Of a stretch of DNA of 64,000 nt, positions 6,174 to 25,252 are shown in pieces. Location: positions 180,641 through 244,640 of the forward strand of contig JAHQWK010000004.1 of NCBI GenBank assembly GCA_029856145.1, read 5' to 3'. The DNA is from Promethearchaeia archaeon (lineage in GTDB: Archaea > Asgardarchaeota > Lokiarchaeia > Sigyniarchaeales > SOKP01). The translations under genes were made by a program, and so were the position numbers. How positions within the stretch are numbered: the first letter of the stretch is position 1; the number at the start of each line of letters is the position of its first letter. Under the pieces are notes generated by a model, which worked only from the letters and a program-made list of their open reading frames with translations, did not search any database and was not told the DNA's origin.

Positions 6174-6460
6174 TTAAGTGTAAATATGTGAAAAAGTCTC
6201 TACAGTTTTTACAATATCTGTAGCTAAATAATTTTACTTAAACACTGAAGCAAAGAAAGCACGATCTCTTGGGTTGAAATAATTATACCCAAACTTTTTC
6301 CATTCAATACTGACTTGTAAAGGGGCAAAAAGAGAAATCTGATCTTTCATTAAATTCATCAATAATAAGTTTCTCTCTTGCAGAGTATTATTAGATATAG
6401 TATTTAATAAAATACATTCACTAAAAAAATCCCAAGAATCCTTAAATTGAATACAGAATT
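6174..6460 (-). pseudogene. Displaced 3' end of the amidohydrolase gene
   Basis: This 287-bp stretch aligns without gaps to the last 287 bp of the amidohydrolase gene (8934-9220), at roughly 80% nucleotide identity by eye with many differences at third positions. The encoded tail ends in TVETFSHIYT, nearly identical to TVDTFSHIYT in the intact gene. An internal codon corresponding to CAG is TAA here, so the copy is dead. It forms the left bracket of a segment carrying the histidine kinase at 6571-8124. Confidence 0.85.
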
Positions 6461-6465
6461 TTTAT

Positions 6466-12309: not shown

Positions 12310-14163
12310 TTAAAATAAAGATTGGATAAAAGTTTTAAAAATATTATAATCGTTGATAAATTCGTAGGAAAGGACTAAGTTGATGATTTTTGATTTGGCT
12401 GTTGGAAATATCTGTGAAAGCTCATTAGAGATTTTACCCCCTTTAAAAATAGAATCGTCTATTATCAAATTAATAGTATCTCCAACTTTTTTAATTTTTG
12501 AATAAAATCGATCGCTTAAATCGTGTTCAGACGATATTATAATTGTTGGTTTTCCTAAATATGGAATAAAGTCTAAATTAAAAATTAATACTTGACCGGG
12601 GACACTGCTGAGATTTTTAAAAAATTGTTTCAATGAAGCATTAAGGGTGTTTAACTCATTTTGGTTATAAATCTCTTTTGATGGAAAGACATAATACGCT
12701 ATTGATTTTTTTAGAGAATATTTCAAATCATTATATACACGATCTAATATTGGAAAAATGCTAAAATCAAAACTAAATAAAGATAAAAACGCAATTGGAA
12801 AATTGAAATCATTTACAAGAATATTACTGCTTACATTTCCACCAATTAAACTAAAATTTGTAATTTCCCTATTAACTTGAGAGATAAACGTATTCAATAA
12901 GAAATATTGAGAAAAAGCTAATGTAGCTTCAACTTTAGTTTGAATTTCATCTACCATTACATAAATAATATCGAATAGATTTTTTGTTAATTTTTCTTTA
13001 AGCTCTTGAATAGCAATAGTTTCAATAATAGAATGAGCTACTGTAGGACTATCAAATTCAGCAAGAGCATTAATTGCGTCCTTTATAAACTCATAAGATT
13101 GTTTTCTTAATTTTCTATTTTCTAGGTTGTTGCTATATGAATTATGGCTTAATTGAATGATTAAATTAAAAATTTTAATTACTTCAGATTGAGAATTCTG
13201 ACCATATAACTTTTTCGCTATATTAAACAAAACTCTTGTCTTTAGAAAATCATTATCTATTTGCTCTACTAATTTCTGAGCTGATAAGGGATTAGATTCA
13301 ATTACTTTACTAAATATAATGCTTATAAGATCTTCTTTAATAGAAGGATTTTGAATTAAAGATCCAGTTCTAATTGCTTGTTCAGGATTCACTAAAACTT
13401 GATCTAAAGCTAATAATTTCAATATCTTTTGTTGGAGATCTAAATCTTGTAAATTTCGAGCTACTTGGACCATTTGATTAAAATCTTTTGAGGCATAAGC
13501 TCGAATTAAATTTGTATATAAATTAATTTGTTCAGTCTTGTTGGATAGCATTAATGCGAACTCTAAAGCTTTTAGAGGATTATTAATTGAAAGATAACCT
13601 TTTGCTAACTGCTTTATATAAGCATCTATTTTTTCAAGCAGTTGAGAAGTCGACGAACCCATAGATCGTGCCGAATTGAATTCCTCTCTCAAAATTTTTA
13701 ACTGTTGTTCTGCCTTTTTTATTGCATTTTGATCCATATTAATGAAATAATCTTCTGAATTAAACATTTCAACCTTTTCTGTAATGGTAAAAGCATAATT
13801 TTTTAAAATTGCGTTCATTTTGCTAACTGGGACAACCCCTCTGACTTTTTGTACTTTTACCTTATATTCAGTAATCTTAAGCCAATTTACATTAATAATT
13901 AATTTACCAAAACCATCAGCAGTTGGCTCTAACTTTAATGTTATATCCTTGGTTTCTCCCGGACCAAATTCTATATGGGTGTTAAATTCTTCGGGTTGTA
14001 ATCTAATGTTTAAGTTTTCTCCCTCAAAATCGAATTTAAATGTCTCTTTTTTGCTTGAAGTGTTTACCGTCTGAATTTTGATCTCATTATCAATACCGGT
14101 AATTAATAAATTTTGCGGGAATTTTGTTATATTTAAAGAGATGATTTTATCTGCGTTTGACAT
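12310..14163 (-). CDS. Helical-repeat protein with N-terminal beta domain, function unknown
   Basis: 617 aa from the ATG at 14163 (a GTG at 14187 is an alternative). Residues 1-110 look like an Ig-like beta sandwich (IHIEFGPGETKDITLKLEP style spacing). Residues about 130-400 form tandem helical pairs resembling TPR/HEAT repeats (KALEFALMLSNKTEQINLY, then QMVQVARNLQDLDLQQKI). The last 200 residues are alpha/beta. No catalytic motif seen. Such proteins act as scaffolds; a link to the ligase and amidohydrolase downstream is possible from strand and order only. Confidence 0.6.
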   Translation of the reverse strand: MSNADKIISLNITKFPQNLLITGIDNEIKIQTVNTSSKKETFKFDFEGENLNIRLQPEEFNTHIEFGPGETKDITLKLEPTADGFGKLIINVNWLKITEYKVKVQKVRGVVPVSKMNAILKNYAFTITEKVEMFNSEDYFINMDQNAIKKAEQQLKILREEFNSARSMGSSTSQLLEKIDAYIKQLAKGYLSINNPLKALEFALMLSNKTEQINLYTNLIRAYASKDFNQMVQVARNLQDLDLQQKILKLLALDQVLVNPEQAIRTGSLIQNPSIKEDLISIIFSKVIESNPLSAQKLVEQIDNDFLKTRVLFNIAKKLYGQNSQSEVIKIFNLIIQLSHNSYSNNLENRKLRKQSYEFIKDAINALAEFDSPTVAHSIIETIAIQELKEKLTKNLFDIIYVMVDEIQTKVEATLAFSQYFLLNTFISQVNREITNFSLIGGNVSSNILVNDFNFPIAFLSLFSFDFSIFPILDRVYNDLKYSLKKSIAYYVFPSKEIYNQNELNTLNASLKQFFKNLSSVPGQVLIFNLDFIPYLGKPTIIISSEHDLSDRFYSKIKKVGDTINLIIDDSIFKGGKISNELSQIFPTAKSKIINLVLSYEFINDYNIFKTFIQSLF

Positions 14164-14286
14164 AATTCGAAGGTTCTTCTTGTTCACTTTATTAATACTA
14201 ATCCAAAATATCTCATTATTTTTTAGGTTTAATAATTAATAATGGATTAACTAGTTTAGGTTTAATTAACAAAAAGCAATGAAGTT

Positions 14287-15054
14287 TTATTTTCCCATTC
14301 TTCGATTTCTTCTTAAATAATCTTCTATATCTTCAATTACCATTTCTTTATTATAATCAGGCCATAAATCCTCTCTAAATTTAAATTCAGCATAAGAAGA
14401 ATCCCATAACAAAAATCCTGAGATTCTTGCTCCATCATCCATTCCAGTTCTAATGATGTAATCTACTGGAGGGAAATTTTTCGTATAAAGATATTTTTTA
14501 ATTAAATCCGTATTTACATCTTCTGGATTAACACCATCACTGATTATTTCCTTTACAGCGTCGACTATTTCTTCATGACCATCATACATAATACAAAGGT
14601 TTATGAAATTTTGGTCATGTTTCTTAGTAAATTCAATTAATTCTTCAATTTTTTTCTTTGCATTCTCTGGTAACATTGATATCCTACCAATAACATTGAA
14701 TTTAACTTTTTCTTCTTTGACAATCGATTCATTTATTACCGTATCGACTGCTTTAATCACTATCTTATAAATATACTCAAGTTCCTCAGGTTTACGTTTT
14801 TTCACATTTTCAAGTGATAAAATATACAAACTTAAATATTGGATCCCCGCATCAAAAAAATCAAATAGCCTCTTTTTGAGGTTTTCATATCCGACTAGAT
14901 GACCAAAATTGATATCAAGGTTTCTTTTTTTCGCCCATCGTCTGTTTTTGGTTAAAGGGGGAAATCCCTTTTAAATACCATCAATGATGAGCCCGATATG
15001 CTTAGGTAACCTATCTTTTCCAGTTTTTTTTAATTCTTCTAAAGTAGTGACCAT
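14287..15054 (-). CDS. uppS: Cis-prenyltransferase (undecaprenyl diphosphate synthase family), interrupted by a 30-nt insertion
   Basis: ATG at 15054. Codons 17-26 read PKHIGLIIDG, then a 30-nt insertion containing TAA (14947-14976), then NRRWAKKR. Without the insertion the text is DGNRRWAKKR, the invariant diphosphate-binding motif of cis-prenyltransferases (archaeal form DGNRRWA). After it come FGHLVGYENLK, YLSLYILSLEN and DYIIRTGMDDGARISGF, all standard motifs; RISGFLLWDSSYAEF is the C-terminal signature. Excised length is 245 aa, normal for the family. The enzyme makes long-chain polyprenyl diphosphate for glycan carriers from IPP made by the adjacent locus. Confidence 0.9.
14947..14976 (-). 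other. 30-nt mini-intron-like insertion in the cis-prenyltransferase gene
   Basis: Located between the GGT (Gly) and AAC (Asn) codons of the DGN motif, with an in-frame TAA as its second codon. Numbered 5'-3' on the coding strand: it starts ATTT, has GGG-ATTTC-CCC as hairpin tip (loop at 12-16), and positions 3-11 pair with 17-25 except for one A-C mismatch. Positions 26-28 (CCA) pair with TGG of the 5' flank. Border ambiguity of one nt (both sides A) lets the cut fall in three-nt bulges UA^U and AA^A, though the central helix then has one A-A mismatch. Same layout as 22425-22455. Confidence 0.8.
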
Positions 15055-15150
15055 CTAACCAATTAAAAAGTTGTATTATTTTTAATATTAATATTAAATA
15101 TTAGAGTTATTAATTTTATCTAAAAATTTTTTATTATATAAATTTATGAT

Positions 15151-15252
15151 TTAAACTCTTACCAACTTAACATCGTTGATTGGGTTTATTTTTTTAGAAC
15201 AATCAGGAGGAATTTTAAATTTATAAGCGATTATCTCATCTTTCATTGACAT
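15151..15252 (-). CDS. Small protein of 33 aa, unknown
   Basis: ATG at 15252, two nt after the stop of the 66-aa gene upstream. Product begins MSMKDEIIAYKFKIPPDC and ends in a basic VKLVRV. No family recognised. The tight spacing suggests translation coupled to the preceding small gene; the reading frame is short and could be spurious. Confidence 0.3.
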   Translation of the reverse strand: MSMKDEIIAYKFKIPPDCSKKINPINDVKLVRV

Positions 15253-15254
15253 GT

Positions 15255-15455
15255 CTAGCTTTTCCTCTGCCTCATAATAGATTCAATTTCATCAAAAGTG
15301 CTTATCTCATCGATGTTGATATTCAGCAATAAGAATGCATACTGAATGAACCTTGCACGAGAGATATAAATTACTGTCTCCTCATCTTCGAAGCGAAGTG
15401 ATAAATATTCATTTACTATAAATTCTTGCATGTTTTCTTTGAGTAGGTTTTTCAA
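15255..15455 (-). CDS. Small protein of 66 aa, unknown
   Basis: Product starts MKNLLKENMQEFIVNEYLSL and contains FEDEETVIYISRARFIQYAF, a pattern seen at the N-terminus of archaeal LRR/regulatory proteins where residues such as YLxLRxExxxTxIYV precede a short helix. Full-length homologues would be longer, so this may be a truncated relative or a stand-alone small protein. It is in the same direction as the cis-prenyltransferase gene 200 nt downstream. Confidence 0.45.
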   Translation of the reverse strand: MKNLLKENMQEFIVNEYLSLRFEDEETVIYISRARFIQYAFLLLNINIDEISTFDEIESIMRQRKS

Positions 15456-15705
15456 TATTATAATATTACCTATTTAAATTGAACGACTCCACAAATTTAA
15501 ATCATTATCCTCATAATTAATGATAAGTGAGATAATCATATGACAAATCTTTAGATTATTACTCTTCATACTCTTATTATTCGAAATTATCATTCATATC
15601 ATTAATTTTAAATACTATTTTGCAATACTTTGGTTTAATTAGATAAGTTTTTGAATAAATAAATATTACATTAAAGAAAAAAAAAGAAATTCAGAGATAC
15701 GGTTA

Positions 15706-17382
15706 ATGCTTTCTAACGATTATTTATTTTCGAACATTGGAATTGATTCTCTATCGTTTTTTTCGCCCAGAACTTATGTTGATTTACGTGAACTTGCGAG
15801 AGAACGGAATGTAGATCCTAATAAATATACTAAGGGTCTTCTGTCTAAGGAGATTCGAATACCTGAAGTTGATGAAGATGTTGTTTCTTTAGGTTTAAAA
15901 GCAGGTTATAATACCTTACAAAGAGGTGGTATCTCTCCTAAGAGTATTGATGCTTTGTTTTTTGGAAACGAAACTATAACATATAGTGTCAAGTCGATCT
16001 CTAACATTTTTGCCGAAATGTTAGATATTTCTCCTAATTCGATTACTCAAGACATATATAATGCTTGTGCAGGCGGAACAATAGCAATTCTTAACGCTAT
16101 AGGTTTAATTGAAAACAATATTATTAATAAAGCCCTCATTATAAGTGCTGATATCTCATCATATCGTATAGGTTCGCCCGGTGAGCCAACACAAGGTTCA
16201 GGAGCTATTGGATTGGTTATCTCGAAAAATCCTCGAATAGCTAAATTTAGTAAAAATTTTGGAAAGATATCAGGTAATGTTAATGACTTTTTCAGACTTC
16301 CAAATGATAAAAATGCACAAGCATATGGTAAATATTCTCAAGAGGCTTATTTTAAATTCCAGCTTGGTGCATATGATGATTTAATCAAACATATTGGGGA
16401 TTTTCATGCAGATTTCTATACATTTCATGCACCATACTCGAAACTTCCGATAAAGATAATGCAACAAATAATACTAAAGCGTTGGATTAAACATATATAT
16501 GAACTACCTAAATTTGAGAGAAAAGCGATTAGATCATCCATACTTACGAAGCTTGATCATTTTCTACATGATGTAACCGTATTACCAGAATATCTTTATT
16601 TAAAACTAAAAGAAAGAGGATATTCTTCCCCCACTTTAGAGAAATTTTCATATTGGGTGAACACAAATGTAAAAGAACGAGTACTTCCTCAACTAAATGT
16701 TCCAATGCACTTTGGTAACATGTATAATGCTTCGCTTTGGGCTCAAGTCCTTTACCTTCTCGAAAACCATGCTCGTGTTGATGATACAATTTATTTTGGT
16801 TCATACGGCTCGGGAGCGACTTGTATTTCAGGGCTTCTAAAAGTTCAAGATGATTTTAAGAAAATTATTCAGAATGGTCCTCACATTGATGACTTTATAA
16901 ATATGAAAAAGAGAAAAAGCGTTCAAGAATACGAATTAATAAAGAATGGTACTACTAAACCAAAGATTTTATTGGGTTATATTGTTGAACATGAACAAAA
17001 TAATGAAAGAGGCTTTACCCTTCATTACTGTGATGATGGGTGCCTTATCCCGAATATAAAAGGATTAGATCACTGTCCGAAAGGGCATTCAGGATATCAT
17101 AAACGGTTTTTCCCTCTCTTTGCGAAGTTGAATAGCGATCCAATTGCTCAATCAGATATCAATGATCTCAAATATTTAAAAGAAGGGTTAGTAAGAGTAG
17201 CTAGTAATGTAAAAAAAGGCAGTGCTTTAGAGTATGAAATAAGAAGAGTTGAGAATGAAAACGAGGGAAATCTAAACGCAAAAGGATTATTAAATTGGAG
17301 TCCTATATATTTGCCAATATCAGAAAAATATTTAATAAAAAGAGATAATCAAATCGAAGATCTGCCTATTGTTCTTGAATAA
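15706..17382 (+). CDS. hmgS: Hydroxymethylglutaryl-CoA synthase with C-terminal extension
   Basis: 558 aa. Thiolase fold: nucleophile Cys in YNACAGGT (about residue 120), catalytic Glu region SKEIRIPEVDED, His in FHAPYSKLP and FGSYGSGATC near the end of the core. It condenses acetyl-CoA with acetoacetyl-CoA to HMG-CoA, the first committed mevalonate step. At 558 aa it is longer than the roughly 350-aa form common in archaea and closer to the eukaryotic/bacterial type. The tail (about 430-558) has Cys and His residues (YCDDGC, DHCPKGH) that may bind zinc. It opens the plus-strand part of the isoprenoid locus; no DUF35 partner or thiolase is adjacent. Confidence 0.9.
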   Translation: MLSNDYLFSNIGIDSLSFFSPRTYVDLRELARERNVDPNKYTKGLLSKEIRIPEVDEDVVSLGLKAGYNTLQRGGISPKSIDALFFGNETITYSVKSISNIFAEMLDISPNSITQDIYNACAGGTIAILNAIGLIENNIINKALIISADISSYRIGSPGEPTQGSGAIGLVISKNPRIAKFSKNFGKISGNVNDFFRLPNDKNAQAYGKYSQEAYFKFQLGAYDDLIKHIGDFHADFYTFHAPYSKLPIKIMQQIILKRWIKHIYELPKFERKAIRSSILTKLDHFLHDVTVLPEYLYLKLKERGYSSPTLEKFSYWVNTNVKERVLPQLNVPMHFGNMYNASLWAQVLYLLENHARVDDTIYFGSYGSGATCISGLLKVQDDFKKIIQNGPHIDDFINMKKRKSVQEYELIKNGTTKPKILLGYIVEHEQNNERGFTLHYCDDGCLIPNIKGLDHCPKGHSGYHKRFFPLFAKLNSDPIAQSDINDLKYLKEGLVRVASNVKKGSALEYEIRRVENENEGNLNAKGLLNWSPIYLPISEKYLIKRDNQIEDLPIVLE

Positions 17383-17435
17383 TAAGATACTACTACTTTT
17401 TTATCCTCATAACTAATTTTACATCCGCATTCAAT

Positions 17436-17987
17436 TTATTCATCTCCCCACCTCTTAATGTCACTTTCCACCCCAATTTGGTCAAGAATCCTCCCTACAG
17501 TATGATCGATAAGTTCATCAACGGATTCTGGATTAATGTAATAAGAAGGAATTGGGGGTGCAATTACAACACCTAAATTTGCTAGTTTAAGCATATTCTC
17601 TAAATGTATTGGACTTAATGGACTTTCCCTTACAATAAGAATTAGTTTTCGTTTTTCTTTTATTGTTACATCCGCAGCTCTTGTAATTAAATTATCAGAA
17701 TAACCATTAGCTATTGATGCTAAAGTTTTCATAGTACAAGGAACAATGATCATTCCATCAGTTTTATACGAACCACTAGCAGGTGGAGCAGTCAAATCAT
17801 TTACATCATAATAAGTTGTAGCTAATTGTTGAATATCAGTAATTCTTATGTTAGCTTCACTTAAAAGAACTAGTTCAGCTGCTTTAGATATGATTAATTC
17901 AGTTTCAATATTTTTTTCTTTTAAATAATTTAATAATTTCACTGCAATTGATATACCTGAGGCACCAGTTATCGCAATAAGAATCAT
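17436..17987 (-). CDS. ubiX: UbiX-type flavin prenyltransferase
   Basis: 184 aa from ATG 17987 (GTG at 17996 also possible). The N-terminal ITGASGISIAVKLL is the flavin-binding start of UbiX/Pad1; MIVPCTMKTLASIANGYSDNLITRAADV and LIVRESPLSPIHLENMLKL are family motifs. UbiX attaches a dimethylallyl group to FMN to make prenyl-FMN, the cofactor of UbiD decarboxylases. Its place beside the UbiD-like gene at 19472 fits supply of cofactor for anhydromevalonate-phosphate decarboxylation, and its own prenyl donor is a product of this pathway. Confidence 0.93.
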   Translation of the reverse strand: MILIAITGASGISIAVKLLNYLKEKNIETELIISKAAELVLLSEANIRITDIQQLATTYYDVNDLTAPPASGSYKTDGMIIVPCTMKTLASIANGYSDNLITRAADVTIKEKRKLILIVRESPLSPIHLENMLKLANLGVVIAPPIPSYYINPESVDELIDHTVGRILDQIGVESDIKRWGDE

Positions 17988-18123
17988 AATTCTCACAGAT
18001 ATTTGATTGTAAATTTAAATTTCTTCTAAGTATTAATTAATTAGGAATAATAATTATTTTTTGTATTAATTGTAAAAATGTATAATAAAAAATACTTTTC
18101 TAAGATAAAATCGATTGTTAATT

Positions 18124-19404
18124 ATGAGTGGATATAATTCTGAAATTTCTGGTTTTTATAAATTATCAATAAAAAAACGCAGAGAACTATTATCTGAACT
18201 TATTAATTTTAATGAAAATGATATAAAACTTCTGGAGAATTTAGGTTACTTTACAGAAACTCAAATTGATACCTTTATAGAGAATGTAATTGGTTCTTAT
18301 CAATTACCAATTGGAATTGCTTGTAATTTTAAAGTAAACAATAAGGACTATTTAATCCCTATGGTTATTGAAGAACCTTCAGTTGTAGCAGCAGCCTCAA
18401 ATGCAGCAAAAATAGCTAGAAAACATGGAGGTTTTCACTCTGAGAATGTTAAATCAGTAATGATCTCTCAAATTCAAATAACTAACGTAAAAGATATTGA
18501 ATCTGCTAAAAGGAAATTAGAAGAAAATAAGGAAAGCATTTTAAAATACGCAAATGAAAAAGATCCTCTCTTAATAAAATTAGGTGGCGGAGCTTTTGAT
18601 TTTGAAATTCGAGAGTTAACAACGAGAAGAGGAGAGATGTTGATTGTTCATTTATTAGTTGATGTTTTAGATGCCATGGGGGCGAATGTGGTAAATACTA
18701 TGGCTGAAACCATTAGTCCGTATATAGAAGAAATATCTGGAGGCAAGATATATCTTAGAATTGTATCCAATTTGGCAACTCATCGAATAGCGAAAAGTAA
18801 AGCAACATTTGATAAGGATTTATTAGGTGGAGACGAAGTAGTAGAAGGGATCTTAAATGCATATGAATTTGCACTAGCAGATCCTTATAGAGCTACAACC
18901 CATAATAAAGGAATAATGAATGGAATTATAGCTTTAACGATGGCTACAGGAAACGATACGCGAGCTATTGAATCTGGGGCACACGCATATGCTGCATTGA
19001 ATGGACAATATTCTCCATTAACCAAATTTCAGATTGATTCTAATGGAAATTTAGTAGGAGAAATAGAAGTCCCTCTTGCTCTAGGCATTATTGGAGGGAT
19101 GACTAAAATACATCCTATGGCTCGACTAACTTTAAAAATTTTAAATATCAAAAGTGCAAATGAACTTTCTCAAGTAGCAGCTGCGCTTGGTTTAGCTCAA
19201 AATGTGGCCGCCTTAAGAGCCTTAGCTTCAGAAGGAATCCAAGAAGGTCACATGGTTCTCCATTCGAGAAATATTGCAAAACTTGCAGGCGTACCTGAAA
19301 AGTTAATAGAAAAAGTAGCAAGCAAATTAGTAGAAGATAAGAAAATTAGAGTTGACCATGCGAAAGAAATTTTAAAAAGAATACTTAATAATGAAAACCT
19401 TTAG
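18124..19404 (+). CDS. hmgA: Class II-like HMG-CoA reductase
   Basis: 426 aa from ATG 18124 (a TTG lies nine nt upstream). Motifs: PIGIACNFKVN at the substrate loop, EEPSVVAAASNAAKIAR carrying the catalytic Glu, DAMGANVVNTMAE at the nucleotide-binding turn, and a late His (GHMVLHSRNIAKLAG). Length and the motif order are those of class II reductases. It reduces HMG-CoA to mevalonate. It begins a run of six same-strand genes (18124-25252) with short gaps or overlaps. Confidence 0.95.
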   Translation: MSGYNSEISGFYKLSIKKRRELLSELINFNENDIKLLENLGYFTETQIDTFIENVIGSYQLPIGIACNFKVNNKDYLIPMVIEEPSVVAAASNAAKIARKHGGFHSENVKSVMISQIQITNVKDIESAKRKLEENKESILKYANEKDPLLIKLGGGAFDFEIRELTTRRGEMLIVHLLVDVLDAMGANVVNTMAETISPYIEEISGGKIYLRIVSNLATHRIAKSKATFDKDLLGGDEVVEGILNAYEFALADPYRATTHNKGIMNGIIALTMATGNDTRAIESGAHAYAALNGQYSPLTKFQIDSNGNLVGEIEVPLALGIIGGMTKIHPMARLTLKILNIKSANELSQVAAALGLAQNVAALRALASEGIQEGHMVLHSRNIAKLAGVPEKLIEKVASKLVEDKKIRVDHAKEILKRILNNENL

Positions 19405-19471
19405 TTTTATAAAATTTGTTTCTGTAACTCAAAATATTAGTCAATTAGATCGAAATAAGTTTATGAGATGA

Positions 19472-20782
19472 ATGAAATTTATGGGCTTTAGAGAATATAT
19501 AAATCAAATTGATGAAGAAGGTCTTCTTCGAAAGGTTGAAATTGAAGTATCGAAAAATTTAGAGATTCCCGGAATTTTGAAAGAGATTGAACCAACTCCA
19601 GTTATGTTTAATCATGTTAGAGAATCGGAATTTCGTGTAATTGGTAATGTTTTCTGTACTAAAAATGTAATTGCTTCATATTTCGGTGTTACTCCTGCAG
19701 ATCTCATACCAATGCTCTCAAAAGCGATTTCAGAACGTTCAGAACCAGAAGTTGTTTCTAGGGCTCCTTGTCAAGAAGTCATTGAATCAGGAGTTGATTT
19801 AGATAATCTTCCAATTTTATTCCATTGTGAAAAAGATGGTGGAAATTATATTAGTTCTGCTGTTGTTATTACTCGAGATCCTGATTATGGACAAAATATG
19901 GATTTTCATCGAGCAATGCAATTTTCAAAAGGAAAATTTTCAACTCGAATAGTAAGGGGTCGTCATTTTCACAAATTTTTAGAAAAAAATGGTGAATTAG
20001 ACGTAGCTTTTTGTATAGGAAATACTCCAAACATTCTAATTGCTGGAGCAACTTCTGTAGATATTGGAGTTGATGAATTACAAATAGCAAATGCATTAGA
20101 ACCTATTAAAGTAGTTAAAGCAAGTTCAGTAGATCTTCTAATACCTGCAGAAGCAGAATTCATTTTAGAAGGACGTGTTTATTTAGAAGAAAAACATTCA
20201 GAAGGTCCTTTTGTTGATCTAACTGAGACCTATGACACGATTAGAGAAGAACCCGTCTTTGAAGTAAAAAAAATCACTCATAGAAAAGATGCGATTTGGC
20301 AAGCTTTATTACCAGGTGCACTTGAACATAAAATATTAATGGGGATGCCTCGAGAGCCAACTATATTTAATAAAGTAAAGGAAGCAGGAGTAAAGTGTTT
20401 AGATGTAAATGTAAATCCTGGAGGTTGTTCATGGTTACATGCAATAGTCCAGATTGATAAAAAAACAGAAGAAGACGGGAAAAAAGCGATATTTGGTACC
20501 TTTACAGGGCATAGAAGTTGTAAACATGTTTTTATTGTTGATAAAGATATTAATATTTATGATCCTCTCTCTGTAGAATGGGCGATGGCAACTCGCTTCC
20601 AAGGAGATACCAGAATGATAGTGAAAAATAAAGAACCAGGCAGTAGTTTGGACCCCAGTGCTGAACCAAGCAGTAAGTTAACTACCAAAATTGGGTTTGA
20701 TTTAACTAAACCACTTGTCGTTAAAGGAAAGAGTTTTGATATTGCAGAATTTCCAAAAGTTGATCTGAACAAATATTTTTAA
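19472..20782 (+). CDS. UbiD-like trans-anhydromevalonate-5-phosphate decarboxylase
   Basis: 436 aa, UbiD family. N-terminal FREYINQIDEEGLL, prenyl-FMN site region YISSAVVITRDPD and RHFHKFLE, acidic catalytic region SEGPFVDLTETYD, and LLPGALEHKILMG are recognisable. In the archaeal mevalonate pathway described for Aeropyrum, a UbiD homologue decarboxylates trans-anhydromevalonate 5-phosphate to isopentenyl phosphate. Here it directly precedes both subunits of phosphomevalonate dehydratase and has UbiX nearby, so that role, rather than ubiquinone or aromatic-acid decarboxylation, is the strong inference. Confidence 0.9.
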   Translation: MKFMGFREYINQIDEEGLLRKVEIEVSKNLEIPGILKEIEPTPVMFNHVRESEFRVIGNVFCTKNVIASYFGVTPADLIPMLSKAISERSEPEVVSRAPCQEVIESGVDLDNLPILFHCEKDGGNYISSAVVITRDPDYGQNMDFHRAMQFSKGKFSTRIVRGRHFHKFLEKNGELDVAFCIGNTPNILIAGATSVDIGVDELQIANALEPIKVVKASSVDLLIPAEAEFILEGRVYLEEKHSEGPFVDLTETYDTIREEPVFEVKKITHRKDAIWQALLPGALEHKILMGMPREPTIFNKVKEAGVKCLDVNVNPGGCSWLHAIVQIDKKTEEDGKKAIFGTFTGHRSCKHVFIVDKDINIYDPLSVEWAMATRFQGDTRMIVKNKEPGSSLDPSAEPSSKLTTKIGFDLTKPLVVKGKSFDIAEFPKVDLNKYF

Positions 20783-20799
20783 GATGAGGAAAGGAAAAA

Positions 20800-21993
20800 A
20801 TGAAATTAACATCAGAAGAACAGGACACGCTGGATGGCAAGCACGGTAAAGCTGCCCAAAAATCAATGGAAATTTTAACCACATTGGGCGAAATATTTGA
20901 TGCTGAATGCATGATCGATGTATATGGCGTTCAGATAGCTGGAGTATCGTACGCCAATCTAGGGGAAGCAGGTTTGGAATTCTTAAGCGAAATGGCAGAA
21001 GATGGAAAAGTTAGAGTTTTAGCGACATTAAATCCAGCAGGAATGGATCGTGAAAATTGGCAAGCTTTAGGAATAGATGAAGAATTTGCTAAAAATCAGA
21101 ATCGAGCAATTGATGCATTTGCCAAAATGGGTATAATTACAACATGCTCTTGTACCCCATATTTAATTGGAAATGCTCCACACTACGGTCAACATCTTGC
21201 ATGGGCTGAAAGTAGTGCTGTATGTTATGCAAACTCAGTTATAGGTGCTAGAACTAACCGTGAGGGTGGTCCAAGTGCTTTAGCTTCAGCTATAACCGGA
21301 AAAACGCCAAAATATGGTTATCATTTAGATGAACATCGTCATGGAGAGGTATTAGTTAAAATAAATGCTCCAATTAAAGGTACTGATGGATTTGGTGTTT
21401 TGGGAAAAATAATTGGGGATAAATTAGTCGAGTTAGGAAAGAAAATTCCTTATATAACAGGAATTCCTTCTGCTACAGTTGAAGAACTCAAATCTTTTTG
21501 TGCATCAGTTGCGACTTACGGTGGAACAGCTTTATTCCATATGAAAGGTATAACTCCAGAATATAATAATTATCAGAAACCTAGTGATATTGTTTTTGAA
21601 ATTAATCAAGATGACTTAGATAGAACGCGATTGGAACTTATTGATGATGATATTGAGATAGATTTTGTTAGTATAGGGTGCCCTCATGCTTCAATTCACG
21701 AAATTGCAAAGATTGCGAGCTTATTGAAGGGAAAGAAAGTAAAAAAAGAATTTTGGATCACGACTGCTCGACCTACAAAAAGAATTGCTGATGAAGCGGG
21801 TTATTCTAAAATAATTGAAAATGCAGGAGCGAAATTTGCAGCAGATACTTGTTGTGTTGTTGCTCCAATTAAAGAACGTTTTAAAGGAATTATGGTAGAT
21901 TCAGCAAAAGCTTGTTATTATGGTCGTGCAAAGAACAAATTTAAAGTAAAAATTGGTTCAGTTGAAGAATGTGTTGAGGAGGCAATAAAATGA
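20800..21993 (+). CDS. Phosphomevalonate dehydratase large subunit (aconitase X)
   Basis: 397 aa. Aconitase-X family: MKLTSEEQDTLDGKHGKAAQ at the start, Cys ligands of the iron-sulfur cluster in CSCTPYLIGN and later ADTCCVV, with GARTNREGGPSALASAITG between. It dehydrates mevalonate 5-phosphate to trans-anhydromevalonate 5-phosphate. Ribosome-binding site GATGAGG. The stop overlaps the start of the small subunit gene by ATGA, so the two subunits are translationally coupled. Confidence 0.93.
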   Translation: MKLTSEEQDTLDGKHGKAAQKSMEILTTLGEIFDAECMIDVYGVQIAGVSYANLGEAGLEFLSEMAEDGKVRVLATLNPAGMDRENWQALGIDEEFAKNQNRAIDAFAKMGIITTCSCTPYLIGNAPHYGQHLAWAESSAVCYANSVIGARTNREGGPSALASAITGKTPKYGYHLDEHRHGEVLVKINAPIKGTDGFGVLGKIIGDKLVELGKKIPYITGIPSATVEELKSFCASVATYGGTALFHMKGITPEYNNYQKPSDIVFEINQDDLDRTRLELIDDDIEIDFVSIGCPHASIHEIAKIASLLKGKKVKKEFWITTARPTKRIADEAGYSKIIENAGAKFAADTCCVVAPIKERFKGIMVDSAKACYYGRAKNKFKVKIGSVEECVEEAIK

Positions 21994-22379
21994 AATTAGC
22001 TGGTAGAAAAATCTTTAAAGGTACTGCTGAGGCAGAAGCAATTGTTACACAAGATGGAATTTCTTTTTATGGTGGTATTGACCCTGATACAGGAAAAGTA
22101 GTTGAAGTTGGCCATGAGCTTGAAGGACAATCGATATCAGGAAAAGTGTTGGTTTTTCCAACCGGTAAAGGATCAACAGTGGGATCTTATACCATGTATA
22201 GAATGAAAAAGAATAACACTGCTCCTGTTGCAATCGTTAATAAAGAAATCGATACAATTGTTGCAGTAGGGTGTATAATCAGCGAAATTCCTTGTGTGGA
22301 TAAAATTGATATAAGTAATATCAAAACAGGACAAAAAATTATTGTTAATGGTTCTGAAGGAACTGTGGAGGTAAAATAA
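21990..22379 (+). CDS. Phosphomevalonate dehydratase small subunit
   Basis: 129 aa, aconitase-X swivel domain (formerly DUF126). MKLAGRKIFKGTAEAEAIVT, then ISFYGGIDPDTGKV and FPTGKGSTVGSYTMYRM, the latter with the conserved Ser loop. It forms the active site with the large subunit. Its TAA is directly abutted by the mevalonate kinase ATG at 22380. Confidence 0.93.
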   Translation: MKLAGRKIFKGTAEAEAIVTQDGISFYGGIDPDTGKVVEVGHELEGQSISGKVLVFPTGKGSTVGSYTMYRMKKNNTAPVAIVNKEIDTIVAVGCIISEIPCVDKIDISNIKTGQKIIVNGSEGTVEVK

Positions 22380-23346
22380 ATGGGAGTCGGAAAAGGATAT
22401 GGAAAGACCATACTTTTTGGTGAAATTATTTTCCTATTTCAGGAATAAACACTATCATTTTGTTGTGTATGGTCTTCCAGCAATCGCATCAGCTTTAGGA
22501 TCCTCTACGACTGCTGAAGTTAAAGTAGTCAAGGGTAATGGTTGGACAGTTAATGATCAAAGACTTGCAACACCAGGTTACAAAAAGAAGAAATTCAATG
22601 AGGCAATACAATCAATTAAAAATGTAATTGAACATTTGAGAGTGGATACCGAGAATAAAAAACTTGAAATAAAATTTGCGGGGGATCTGATTGCCGCTAG
22701 CGGAGTAGGTGCTTCAGCTGCTCAATGTACATCACTTTCCCGAGCTTTAAATGACACGTTTAATCTCAAATTAACTGAAAAAAAGATAAATGAGGCAGCT
22801 TATGAAGGAGAGAAAGCCTATCATGGTACTCCTTCAGGTATTGATAACACAGCCTCTACTTATGGTGGTTTAATTTGGTTTGTTAAAAACTTGAGAGGGG
22901 GGGAAAATACGATGGAACTTCTACAGTCACCAAAGAAAATGCCCTTAGTAATAATAAATTCAGGAATAACAGCTTCTACAACAGAAGTAGTAGCTGATGT
23001 TCGACGTTTAAAAGAGGAATCTCCTTTAAAATTTGAAAAAATCTTTAATAATTATGAAAAATTAGCATTAGCAGCAAAAAAAGCCTTACTTGAAGGAAAT
23101 ATTAACACTGTTGGTGACCTAATGAATCAAAACCACAAATTACTACAAGATATAACGGTATCTGGAGAGATTAATGATAAATTAGTCGAAATCTCCTTAC
23201 GAAATGGGGCTAAAGGTGCTAAAATGACAGGAACAGGGCGAGGTGGTTTGGTCATAGCATTAGCTGAAAATGAAGAAATTCAAGATGAAATCGCCAAAAC
23301 TATTGAAAAAAAAGGATATAATGCCTGGAAAACCATGATTGGATGA
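22380..23346 (+). CDS. mvk: Mevalonate kinase interrupted by a 31-nt insertion
   Basis: ATG at 22380. Codons 1-15 read MGVGKGYGKTILFGE; then 31 nt (22425-22455) shift the frame and give a TAA; then HFVVYGLPAIASALG continues to the stop at 23346. Excising 31 nt leaves 936 nt, exactly 312 codons, and restores LFGEHFVVYGLPAIA, the first GHMP motif of mevalonate kinases. The ATP loop SGVGASAAQCTSLSRAL and the C-terminal GAKMTGTGRGGLV are intact, so the gene looks functional once the insertion is removed. It makes mevalonate 5-phosphate. The stop overlaps the next gene. A conventional gene caller would start at 22399 and mis-call the N-terminus. Confidence 0.93.
22425..22455 (+). other. 31-nt mini-intron-like insertion in the mevalonate kinase gene
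   Basis: Sits between the GAA (Glu) and CAT (His) codons of the GEH motif. It starts ATTA; the hairpin tip is TTCCT-ATTTC-AGGAA (22431-22445), with weaker pairing below it. Its 3' part CACT (22450-22453) pairs with GGTG of the 5' flank (22419-22422), giving a 4-bp central helix flanked by three-nt bulges AA^A (22423-22425) and AT^C (22454-22456). Cutting each bulge after its second nt, as archaeal tRNA splicing endonuclease does, gives precisely the border required by the protein. The outer exon helix is weak (U-rich on both sides). Confidence 0.85.
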
Positions 23347-25252
23347 GTGGGAGTTAAAATTGAAAAGTGATAATGAGATATTTCTATTAAAGTTAGGAGG
23401 TAGTTTATTAACTGATAAGAATAAACCTTTTTCTCTTAGAGAAGAGGTTTTAGAGAACTGTCTTAATCAAATTATTGAAAGTAAAAAATCAATTATTTTA
23501 ATTCATGGAGGCGGATCATTTGGGCATCCAATTGCTAAAAAATATCAAATTTCTGAAGGACTAAATGATACTGTCAAGGATCAAATAATTGGACTTTCAA
23601 AAACCCATGAGGTTATGAATAAATTTAATTCTATAATAATAAACAAATTATTAGATAAAGGATATCCCGCAATTTCGATTCAGCCTTCTAGTATTTTTGT
23701 AAAAGATTTTAATCAAATAAAAATAAATACAATAGAACCTATTGAAAAATTACTTGAACTTGGAATAATCCCGGTTTTATATGGTGATATTGTTTTAAGT
23801 TGGGATTCTTATTTTTCAATTCTTTCAGGAGATCAAATTATTTTAAAACTATGTGAAAAAATTCAAAATTTTAAGATTTCAAAAGTCATATTTGCAATTG
23901 AAAAGGATGGTATCTTCATAAAAGACAATGGAAACGAAAAACTGGCTTTAAAATTAAGTTCCAACGATTTAAATAATCTAAAATTGGCTGAATTAGATCA
24001 AAAAATAGATGTTACTGGGGGGATAAAAGGTAAACTAGAAACAATTAAAGAAATAATAAAATTTAATATCCCTGTTCAAATTGTTAATGGGCTTAAGAAT
24101 AAAAATATTCTAAAGGCATTACTTAATCAATCTATAGAATGTACTAATATTAAAGTGCCATCTGATAAAAGATTTGAAAATAAATTATATAATAGGAAGA
24201 TAGAACACATAGAAATCCCTTTAAAGTATAATGTGCAACATTCAAAGAACTATTTTGATGATATAAATCTACTTCATCATCCCCTACCGGAGTATGAATT
24301 AGAGGATATTGATCTTTCTGTTGATTTTTTTAAAAAAGAAATTTCAGCTCCTATATGTATTGCAGCAATTACAGGTGGCCATGAAATTTCTAAAGCAATT
24401 AATAATATCTTAGCAAATGCTGCAAGTTCAGAAAATATTATTATGAGTGTTGGATCTCAAAGAATAGGCTTGGAGGATCCTTCCACCATTGATTCATTTA
24501 AAGTTGTACGTGATGTTGCCCCTAATATTCCAATAATAGGAAATTTGGGAGTTGGACAGTTATGTGATCCTAATTTTAATTTAGATCATTTTAATAAATG
24601 CATTGAGATGATTAATGCTGATGTTATGGCTATACATTTGAACGCTTTACATGAACTTACTCAAAGTGATGGTAATCTTTCTTATAAAAATTTTGAAGAA
24701 ATATTTAAAGAAATAAGAAAAAATCTGAAAATTCCAATTATAGCTAAAGAAGTGGGATCAGGGTTTAATAAGGAATTAGCGTTAAAACTCGATTCATTAG
24801 GAATTGATGGATTTGACGTTGGAGGAATGGGGGGTACTAGTTTTGCTGCAATAGAGTCAATACGCGATGATTCTAGCTATGAAGTATATACTCGAAAGAT
24901 TGCAGACACTTTTCGAGAATGGGGCATTCCAACACCCGTAAGTATAATCAATGTTAGAAAAGCCACTAAAAAACTTATAATAGCAACAGGAGGCTTAAGA
25001 AATGGTCTAGATATAGCCAAAGCAATCTCAATTGGAGCAAATATCGGGGGATTTGCATTTAAGTTTTTAAAAACAGCATGGCAAGATTATAAAAATAATA
25101 CTTTGTCAAATACAATCAAGGAGATAAAAACGCTGAAACAAGAATTAAGATCCTCACTATGGTTAATGAATATAGATAATATTGATAAGCTAATAGGTAA
25201 TGACGATAAAAGGGTTTTATTGGGCAAATTATATCAATGGATAAATCAATGA
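23339..25252 (+). CDS. Fused isopentenyl phosphate kinase and type 2 isopentenyl-diphosphate isomerase
   Basis: 637 aa from a TTG at 23339 (another TTG at 23360). Residues about 10-265 are isopentenyl phosphate kinase: LLKLGGSLLTDK, IHGGGSFGHPIAKKY with the catalytic His, and DVTGGIKGKLETI. Residues about 285-637 are type 2 (FMN/NADPH) isomerase: RKIEHIEI, APICIAAITGGH, SVGSQRIGLEDP, HLNALHE, and GGLRNGLDIAKAISIGA. The first half makes IPP from isopentenyl phosphate and the second converts IPP to DMAPP, so the fusion joins consecutive steps. The two genes are often neighbours in archaea; a single chain is unusual. It overlaps the end of the mevalonate kinase gene. Confidence 0.93.
   Translation: MDEWELKLKSDNEIFLLKLGGSLLTDKNKPFSLREEVLENCLNQIIESKKSIILIHGGGSFGHPIAKKYQISEGLNDTVKDQIIGLSKTHEVMNKFNSIIINKLLDKGYPAISIQPSSIFVKDFNQIKINTIEPIEKLLELGIIPVLYGDIVLSWDSYFSILSGDQIILKLCEKIQNFKISKVIFAIEKDGIFIKDNGNEKLALKLSSNDLNNLKLAELDQKIDVTGGIKGKLETIKEIIKFNIPVQIVNGLKNKNILKALLNQSIECTNIKVPSDKRFENKLYNRKIEHIEIPLKYNVQHSKNYFDDINLLHHPLPEYELEDIDLSVDFFKKEISAPICIAAITGGHEISKAINNILANAASSENIIMSVGSQRIGLEDPSTIDSFKVVRDVAPNIPIIGNLGVGQLCDPNFNLDHFNKCIEMINADVMAIHLNALHELTQSDGNLSYKNFEEIFKEIRKNLKIPIIAKEVGSGFNKELALKLDSLGIDGFDVGGMGGTSFAAIESIRDDSSYEVYTRKIADTFREWGIPTPVSIINVRKATKKLIIATGGLRNGLDIAKAISIGANIGGFAFKFLKTAWQDYKNNTLSNTIKEIKTLKQELRSSLWLMNIDNIDKLIGNDDKRVLLGKLYQWINQ

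Follow-up and report, generated by a model that had tools for sequence, protein, structure and literature searches.

The closest described systems are the short introns of archaeal cbf5 genes in Desulfurococcales and Sulfolobales, which are reported to measure 16-44 bp, to adopt a bulge-helix-bulge (BHB)-like fold of exon and intron, to be spliced by the tRNA-splicing endonuclease EndA with cleavage after the second residue of each 3-nt bulge, and to have been lost in a lineage-specific manner (PMC2738675). The accessible text of the same 2009 report treats archaeal pre-mRNA splicing beyond cbf5 as predicted, with none confirmed, and proposes replacement by a copy of the spliced mRNA as the route of cbf5 intron loss (PMC2738675). 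According to the accessible part of a 2020 report, a BHB was by then known in one mRNA, to which one further cleaved mRNA was added in Haloferax (PMC7714728). Among archaeal EndA enzymes, the alpha-beta and epsilon types are described as efficiently removing introns with relaxed motifs, with an exception in Methanopyrus (PMC6379350). Here we analyse two inserts of about 30 nt in the cis-prenyltransferase (UPPS) and mevalonate kinase (MVK) genes of a Lokiarchaeal genome, which are very probably BHB introns, likely cut from the mRNA by EndA, with the exons then joined, probably by RtcB. The window (the whole 64 kb stretch analysed, 29% G+C, part of contig C3) belongs to a 97% complete genome of 3.55 Mb, G000, referred to below as the own genome. 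Judged by mevalonate kinase, the closest named loci belong to metagenome-assembled genomes of Candidatus Lokiarchaeota, and both inserts sit in genes of one mevalonate/isoprenoid cluster.

On the plus strand, MVK reads GAA / ATTATTTTCCTATTTCAGGAATAAACACTAT / CAT, with a 31-nt insert between FGE and HFVVYG that shifts the frame, while on the minus strand UPPS reads GGT / ATTTAAAAGGGATTTCCCCCTTTAACCAAA / AAC, with a 30-nt insert between DG and NRRWA that carries an in-frame TAA. Insert borders were set by the protein of intronless relatives, and the BHB register rule was applied to them (two 3-nt bulges, a 4-nt central helix and, in each bulge, a cut between the second and third residue). The original prediction, made for 14947..22455, had the letters and coordinates of these real inserts right, and it was also correct about the C at position 26 and about a 3' end that is complementary to the upstream exon. 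Because the MVK copy of the window has unique borders, the agreement of its register with the rule is a test rather than a choice, and cutting at AA^A and AU^C restores FGEHFVVYG. In UPPS the border could lie at either of two adjacent bases; the BHB register picks 14946-14975, with bulges UA^U and AA^A and DGNRRWA as the product of excision. The first letters of the UPPS insert are then TTT, so that the ATT start previously given for both inserts does not hold for this one. The predicted elements are as follows.

22380..22424, plus strand: MVK exon 1, 15 codons, MGVGKGYGKTILFGE
22425..22455, plus strand: MVK intron, 31 nt, unique boundaries, bulges AA^A and AU^C
22456..23346, plus strand: MVK exon 2, HFVVYG... 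through the stop, with Pfam GHMP kinase domains
22419..22422, plus strand: MVK central helix, exon 1 side, GGUG, partner of intron CACU; 4/4 pairs, one of them G.U
22450..22453, plus strand: MVK central helix, 3' side of the intron, CACU, partner of exon 1 22419-22422
22426..22449, plus strand: MVK inner hairpin, loop AUUUC
22401..22412, plus strand: MVK outer helix, exon 1 side, GGAAAGACCAUA, partner of exon 2 22468-22478
22468..22478, plus strand: MVK outer helix, exon 2 side, UAUGGUCUUCC, partner of exon 1 22401-22412
14976..15054, minus strand: UPPS exon 1, 26 codons + 1 nt, ending ...LIIDG + A
14946..14975, minus strand: UPPS intron, 30 nt, BHB register TA^TTT...AAAA^A, one base from the originally predicted 14947-14976
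14287..14945, minus strand: UPPS exon 2, NRRWAKK... through the stop, Pfam PF01255
14978..14981, minus strand: UPPS central helix, exon 1 side, AUGG, partner of intron CCAA; 3/4 pairs, one A.A
14948..14951, minus strand: UPPS central helix, 3' side of the intron, CCAA, partner of exon 1 14978-14981
14952..14974, minus strand: UPPS inner hairpin, 9 positions, one mismatch, loop AUUUC
14982..14992, minus strand: UPPS outer helix, exon 1 side, partner of exon 2 14933-14944
14933..14944, minus strand: UPPS outer helix, exon 2 side, partner of exon 1 14982-14992

In the sequence itself, exon 1 ends in bases complementary to the end of the insert (a central helix of 3-4 bp, with three unpaired bases at each border), exon 1 is complementary to exon 2 (outer helix) and the insert is complementary to itself (inner hairpin). 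In the proposed mechanism, EndA would cut both bulges between residues 2 and 3, the exons would be ligated, probably by RtcB, so that the exact protein is restored, and the 28-34-nt hairpin would be discarded or circularised. It is from this modelled anatomy that we infer splicing of the inserts. PF01974, the EndA domain, was found in 57 of 58 genomes, with at least two matches in 47 of the 58 and two in the own genome, which also contains an RtcB gene.

Relatives were searched for in these 58 genomes, and the best 30 loci were fetched per gene. At the MVK site exactly 31 nt were present in 15 of the 30 loci and 15 were empty, and at the UPPS site four loci carried a 30-nt insert and 26 were empty; the intron-bearing genes thus have relatives with precise empty alleles, which the original prediction had proposed to look for. 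Among 60 more named MVK loci, many of which repeat the same genomes, 36 were readable, of which 17 were empty, 18 held 31 nt and one held 28 nt; the other 24, mostly from distant relatives, were unreadable with the motif used. Across the distinct introns compared (23 for MVK, five for UPPS), the insert sequences diverge and the pairing is largely preserved. Specifically, 89% of the cells were paired in 15 MVK sequences versus 41-48% in slid controls, and 87% of the cells of the drawn structure were paired in four UPPS sequences, a level reached by 11 of 500 shuffles. Six MVK pairs changed on both sides (reached by 2 of 500 shuffles), as did 12 MVK cells (shuffle mean 4.1, reached by 0 of 500). 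Such paired changes across genomes, seen in MVK and UPPS, bear out the earlier claim that the stem covaries. In the register proposed earlier for the hairpin, 3-11 with 17-25, MVK has A.A and U.U mismatches, and over the 15 MVK introns a register that begins by pairing 2 with 25 and has one bulged base pairs 112 of 135 cells versus 100 of 135.

The own-genome scans covered 1.51 Mb of the 3.55 Mb (43%, window included). When these 1.51 Mb were compared with 0.80 Mb of genome G008, 406 G008 ORFs (open reading frames) had a match, 260 of them with an identity of at least 55%. No intron emerged from this comparison when it was filtered for splits, stops and insertions, and a search adjoining the G008 matches then recovered MVK and, by eye, a histone gene. 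In the own genome, the histone is interrupted between MAKKV and FAWSP by 29 nt, and G013 has 29 other nt at the identical site. Among the 30 fetched histone loci, a 29-nt insert was present in two, 26 were empty, one was unread and one (in G018) had a different, longer insert. Around the start of its intron the own-genome histone gene (L240) has AAG/GUAUGU, which resembles a eukaryotic 5' splice site. This likeness is probably due to chance, because the BHB register cuts two bases further on.

A scan of the 1.51 Mb that combined fold and ORF joining yielded 73,631 raw candidates. The first filter ranked MVK and histone 8 and 10 of 1209 and lost UPPS, and the second, adjusted afterwards, ranked MVK, UPPS and histone 4, 5 and 7 of 804, so that these ranks are not blind. 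At rank 9 of 804 stood the gene of a GlcD-like FAD (flavin adenine dinucleotide) oxidase, whose intron was not known beforehand and was confirmed later by relatives; this site was the only one of the 70 scan sites listed to be taken further. Judged by its letters, the site at rank 1 resembles a tRNA gene, and that at rank 21 a gene with a TGA codon, perhaps for selenocysteine. A BLAST of junction peptides from 50,358 candidates against 2.14 Mb of relatives returned 17 rows, six of which were the known genes, three of them in the right register; the other 11 were weak and were set aside by eye. The oxidase carried 32 nt after residue 42 in five of the 30 fetched loci, 30 nt at position 373 (G027), 30 nt at each of positions 402 and 454 (G020, L292), and 34 and 32 nt at positions ~395-399 and 422 (G022, L297), which amounts to six positions with 30-34 nt in 8 of 30 loci. 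L292 and L297 thus have two introns apiece in one gene, at positions for which the other fetched loci gave no detected change. No insert was detected in 22 of the 30 oxidase loci, with L281 and L296 only partly covered.

In total, nine insert positions in four genes (MVK, UPPS, histone and GlcD-like oxidase) share a length of 28-34 nt and a common anatomy. The own genome has introns in all four genes, at four of the nine positions; this count is a lower bound drawn from the 43% scanned and from genes with fetched relatives. The proposal of one family with a fixed design therefore extends well past its first two members, further instances having turned up both in the scanned part of the genome and in relatives, and the restriction to isoprenoid genes proved to be an accident of the window.

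The fold was also compared with chance. Of the 30 distinct introns of MVK, UPPS and histone, 29 formed three or four of the four central pairs at the best of the protein-restoring cuts; the remaining one, MVK locus L099, had two pairs and is counted as empty from the MVK tree analysis onward. All ten oxidase introns likewise formed three or four central pairs at a protein-restoring cut. At random coding positions, three pairs of that strength occurred in 4.3% per register, and in 0.57% when an inner hairpin at least as stable as -2.4 kcal/mol was also required. Since a real site offers between one and seven equivalent registers, chance would do somewhat better than these figures, but it still falls short of what was observed. 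When the two window introns were shuffled, central helix and inner hairpin were both matched in 0 of 1500 trials each, and when ten introns were shuffled, 0-4 of 1500 trials each did as well as the real intron. In keeping with the original prediction, these shuffles and the same-site recurrence in relatives argue against chance.

The exons appear to take part in the fold. The exon 1-exon 2 duplex was stronger in alleles with an intron than in empty ones for MVK (mean -15.25 kcal/mol, n=15, vs -9.39, n=15; P 2e-5), UPPS (-12.88, n=4, vs -8.26, n=26; P 0.002) and oxidase (-16.74, n=5, vs -8.72, n=21; P 0.0006), by P values that ignore relatedness. Third-position variation near the site was likewise low in intron alleles, at 0.25/0.29 vs 0.42 further on for MVK and 0.05/0.05 vs 0.40 for oxidase, and was 0.59/0.56 vs 0.46 and 0.60/0.56 vs 0.54, respectively, in empty alleles. 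In MVK and oxidase this synonymous freezing ends downstream where the helices end, and upstream it does roughly so in oxidase (five sequences). If the inserts are spliced, these data suggest that codon choice acts as splice-site structure.

Several observations weigh against the interpretation of the inserts as BHB introns. Apart from the relatedness that the duplex P values ignore, the duplex ranges overlap, with the intron allele L036 at -9.9, the empty UPPS allele L028 at -18.0 and one empty oxidase at -16.5 kcal/mol. UPPS (five introns) displayed no synonymous freezing (0.51/0.49 vs 0.42), and that of MVK extends upstream beyond the helix to the start codon. RNAalifold found the outer helix in the MVK alignment and missed the inner and central helices, pairing instead the exon 1 GCGAA with exon 2, which would compete with the central helix; in the UPPS alignment it recovered the outer and inner helices and missed the central one. 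The MVK outer helix starts 12 nt off each border, which is looser than in a textbook BHB, and the inner hairpin alone is weak in some MVK copies (0.0 kcal/mol in L093 and -0.7 in L039). Further pair types were no more numerous than in shuffles, 91 of 500 (MVK) and 90 of 500 (UPPS) reaching the count. Finally, the different histone insert of G018 (L263), of ~58-61 nt between FAWS and RKLM, is strongly folded with BHB borders that are unsettled.

How the copies arose is a separate matter. When a tree was built from exon 2 of 47 MVK proteins, 23 of which have the intron, its presence needed eight changes. Well-supported branches impose at least four of these, and the grouping of all intron carriers in one clade was rejected (p 0.00017, by a quick method). 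Because several deeper Lokiarchaeal branches have the intron, we take it to be old and to have been lost exactly, probably more than once, although regain or transfer may also have occurred. Exact loss is the outcome expected from replacement by a copy of the spliced mRNA, as proposed for cbf5. Another origin, compatible with removal as BHB introns and in our view unlikely, is from a mobile hairpin element, which would enter genes and survive through its removal by EndA, much as the original prediction had suggested. The uniform hairpin size and the six oxidase positions in 8 of 30 loci would fit such an element, as would the occurrence of an ANYUC loop at 5 of 9 positions. This motif was defined post hoc, however, so that its nominal chance value overstates the case, and it is missing at oxidase 42, 395, 422 and 454 and in 3 of 5 UPPS introns. 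By site, ANYUC was found in 16 of 23 MVK, 2 of 5 UPPS, 2 of 2 histone, 1 of 1 oxidase-373 and 0 of 5 oxidase-42 introns, and oxidase 402 has it as ACCUC. The loop ATTTC at 12-16 earlier taken as a fixed feature is present in both window introns but varies elsewhere, with AUUUC in just 10 and ANYUC in 21 of 31 distinct introns (MVK, UPPS, histone and oxidase 373). The sharing of ANYUC hints at a common ancestry or at some function of the loop. Presence over the many positions is patchy, and no encoded enzyme, donor or near-identical copy elsewhere was seen in the DNA read, in which no systematic footprint or donor search was made, and repeated loss would explain the eight MVK changes. The MVK intron itself looks old, with repeated change that was probably loss.

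The same anatomy bears on whether the ribosome might instead skip the inserts by translational bypassing, which we regard as very improbable. Similar-looking short non-coding gaps are reported to be dispersed over coding genes where bypassing occurs, and several of these mitochondrial gaps have unmatched codons, which makes the codon test less than absolute (PMC5009743, accessible text). Matched codons were present in 1 of 38 Lokiarchaeal inserts, the two G022 oxidase inserts being outside this count, and bypassing predicts neither the helix between exon 1 and the insert end with its border bulges, nor the exon-exon helix, nor synonymous freezing on two sides. That the inserts are relics, dead genes or assembly errors, with broken genes or with proteins that start downstream or read through, is hardly credible: an ATG at 22399 lies in the frame of MVK exon 2 and could lead a gene caller to an N-terminally wrong protein, but the inserts recur at identical sites in many separate assemblies with (near-)constant length and paired changes, both exons are conserved, and the interruptions fall in conserved motifs. 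Sequencing error, a self-splicing intron and a pathway-specific regulator were rejected as well. At ~30 nt the inserts are too short for a ribozyme or protein, and Rfam at gathering score gave no family match in window 14000-23500, self-splicing introns included.

Some further features of the window and its relatives were recorded along the way. A single 637-aa ORF at 23339-25252 (plus strand) looks, from its translation, like isopentenyl phosphate kinase fused to type-2 isopentenyl diphosphate isomerase, and its two halves are separated by 49 additional nt in L061, L087, L032, L051 and L037. At 6177-6461 (minus strand) a stop late in a long ORF replaces the Gln of the G008 relative (ASVFK*NYLA vs ASVFKQNYLA). 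L130 (scan position 13707, reverse strand) has an in-frame TGA within a conserved gene, and in L175 (12375-12923, minus strand) G008 has a stop where the own-genome relative has Cys; both might encode selenocysteine.

If the inserts are spliced, several genes of one Asgard genome have pre-mRNA introns whose removal depends on tRNA-splicing enzymes and not on ribozymes or a spliceosome. How mRNA introns are gained and lost close to the stem of the eukaryotes could then be tested directly, with natural pairs of intron-present and intron-absent alleles at hand, and gene callers would be likely to mis-predict these Lokiarchaeal proteins. A broader picture, which we put forward tentatively and with somewhat more doubt than confidence, would be that Lokiarchaeia practise spliceosome-free pre-mRNA splicing, with still-spreading ~30-nt EndA introns of one hairpin design that are gained and lost across many protein-coding genes of these close relatives of eukaryotes and whose folds are kept by evolving host codons.

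Archaeal pre-tRNA introns are described with the same motif, two 3-nt bulges around a 4-nt helix (PMC6379350, accessible text), whereas the hosts here are mRNAs and the outer helix consists of codons. The gaps that translation bypasses in T4 gene 60 and in the mitochondria of Magnusiomyces are likewise reported as short non-coding gaps in coding sequence (PMC5009743), and it is the BHB architecture that separates the Lokiarchaeal inserts from them. Asgard group II introns are reported intervening sequences of the same phylum (PMC9887622), but they are self-splicing, mobile and protein-encoding, in contrast to inserts of ~30 nt. In the literature searched, outside of which lie preprints and most subscription journals, and as far as its accessible text goes, no earlier report of such introns in Asgard protein genes was found. 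The nearest relatives in kind remain the cbf5 introns of heat-loving archaea, which are similar in their short length, protein-coding host, BHB-like fold, predicted cut position and lineage-specific loss. Unlike these, the inserts occur in Lokiarchaeia and in MVK, UPPS, histone and GlcD-like oxidase (the cbf5 of the own genome was not itself looked at), at nine positions, four of the introns having been found in one genome, with a narrow 28-34-nt hairpin design and a splicing that we infer. Short mRNA introns spliced by EndA are thus already known from cbf5 in Crenarchaeota, and the Asgard protein genes would, judging by their sequences, present a new variant of them.

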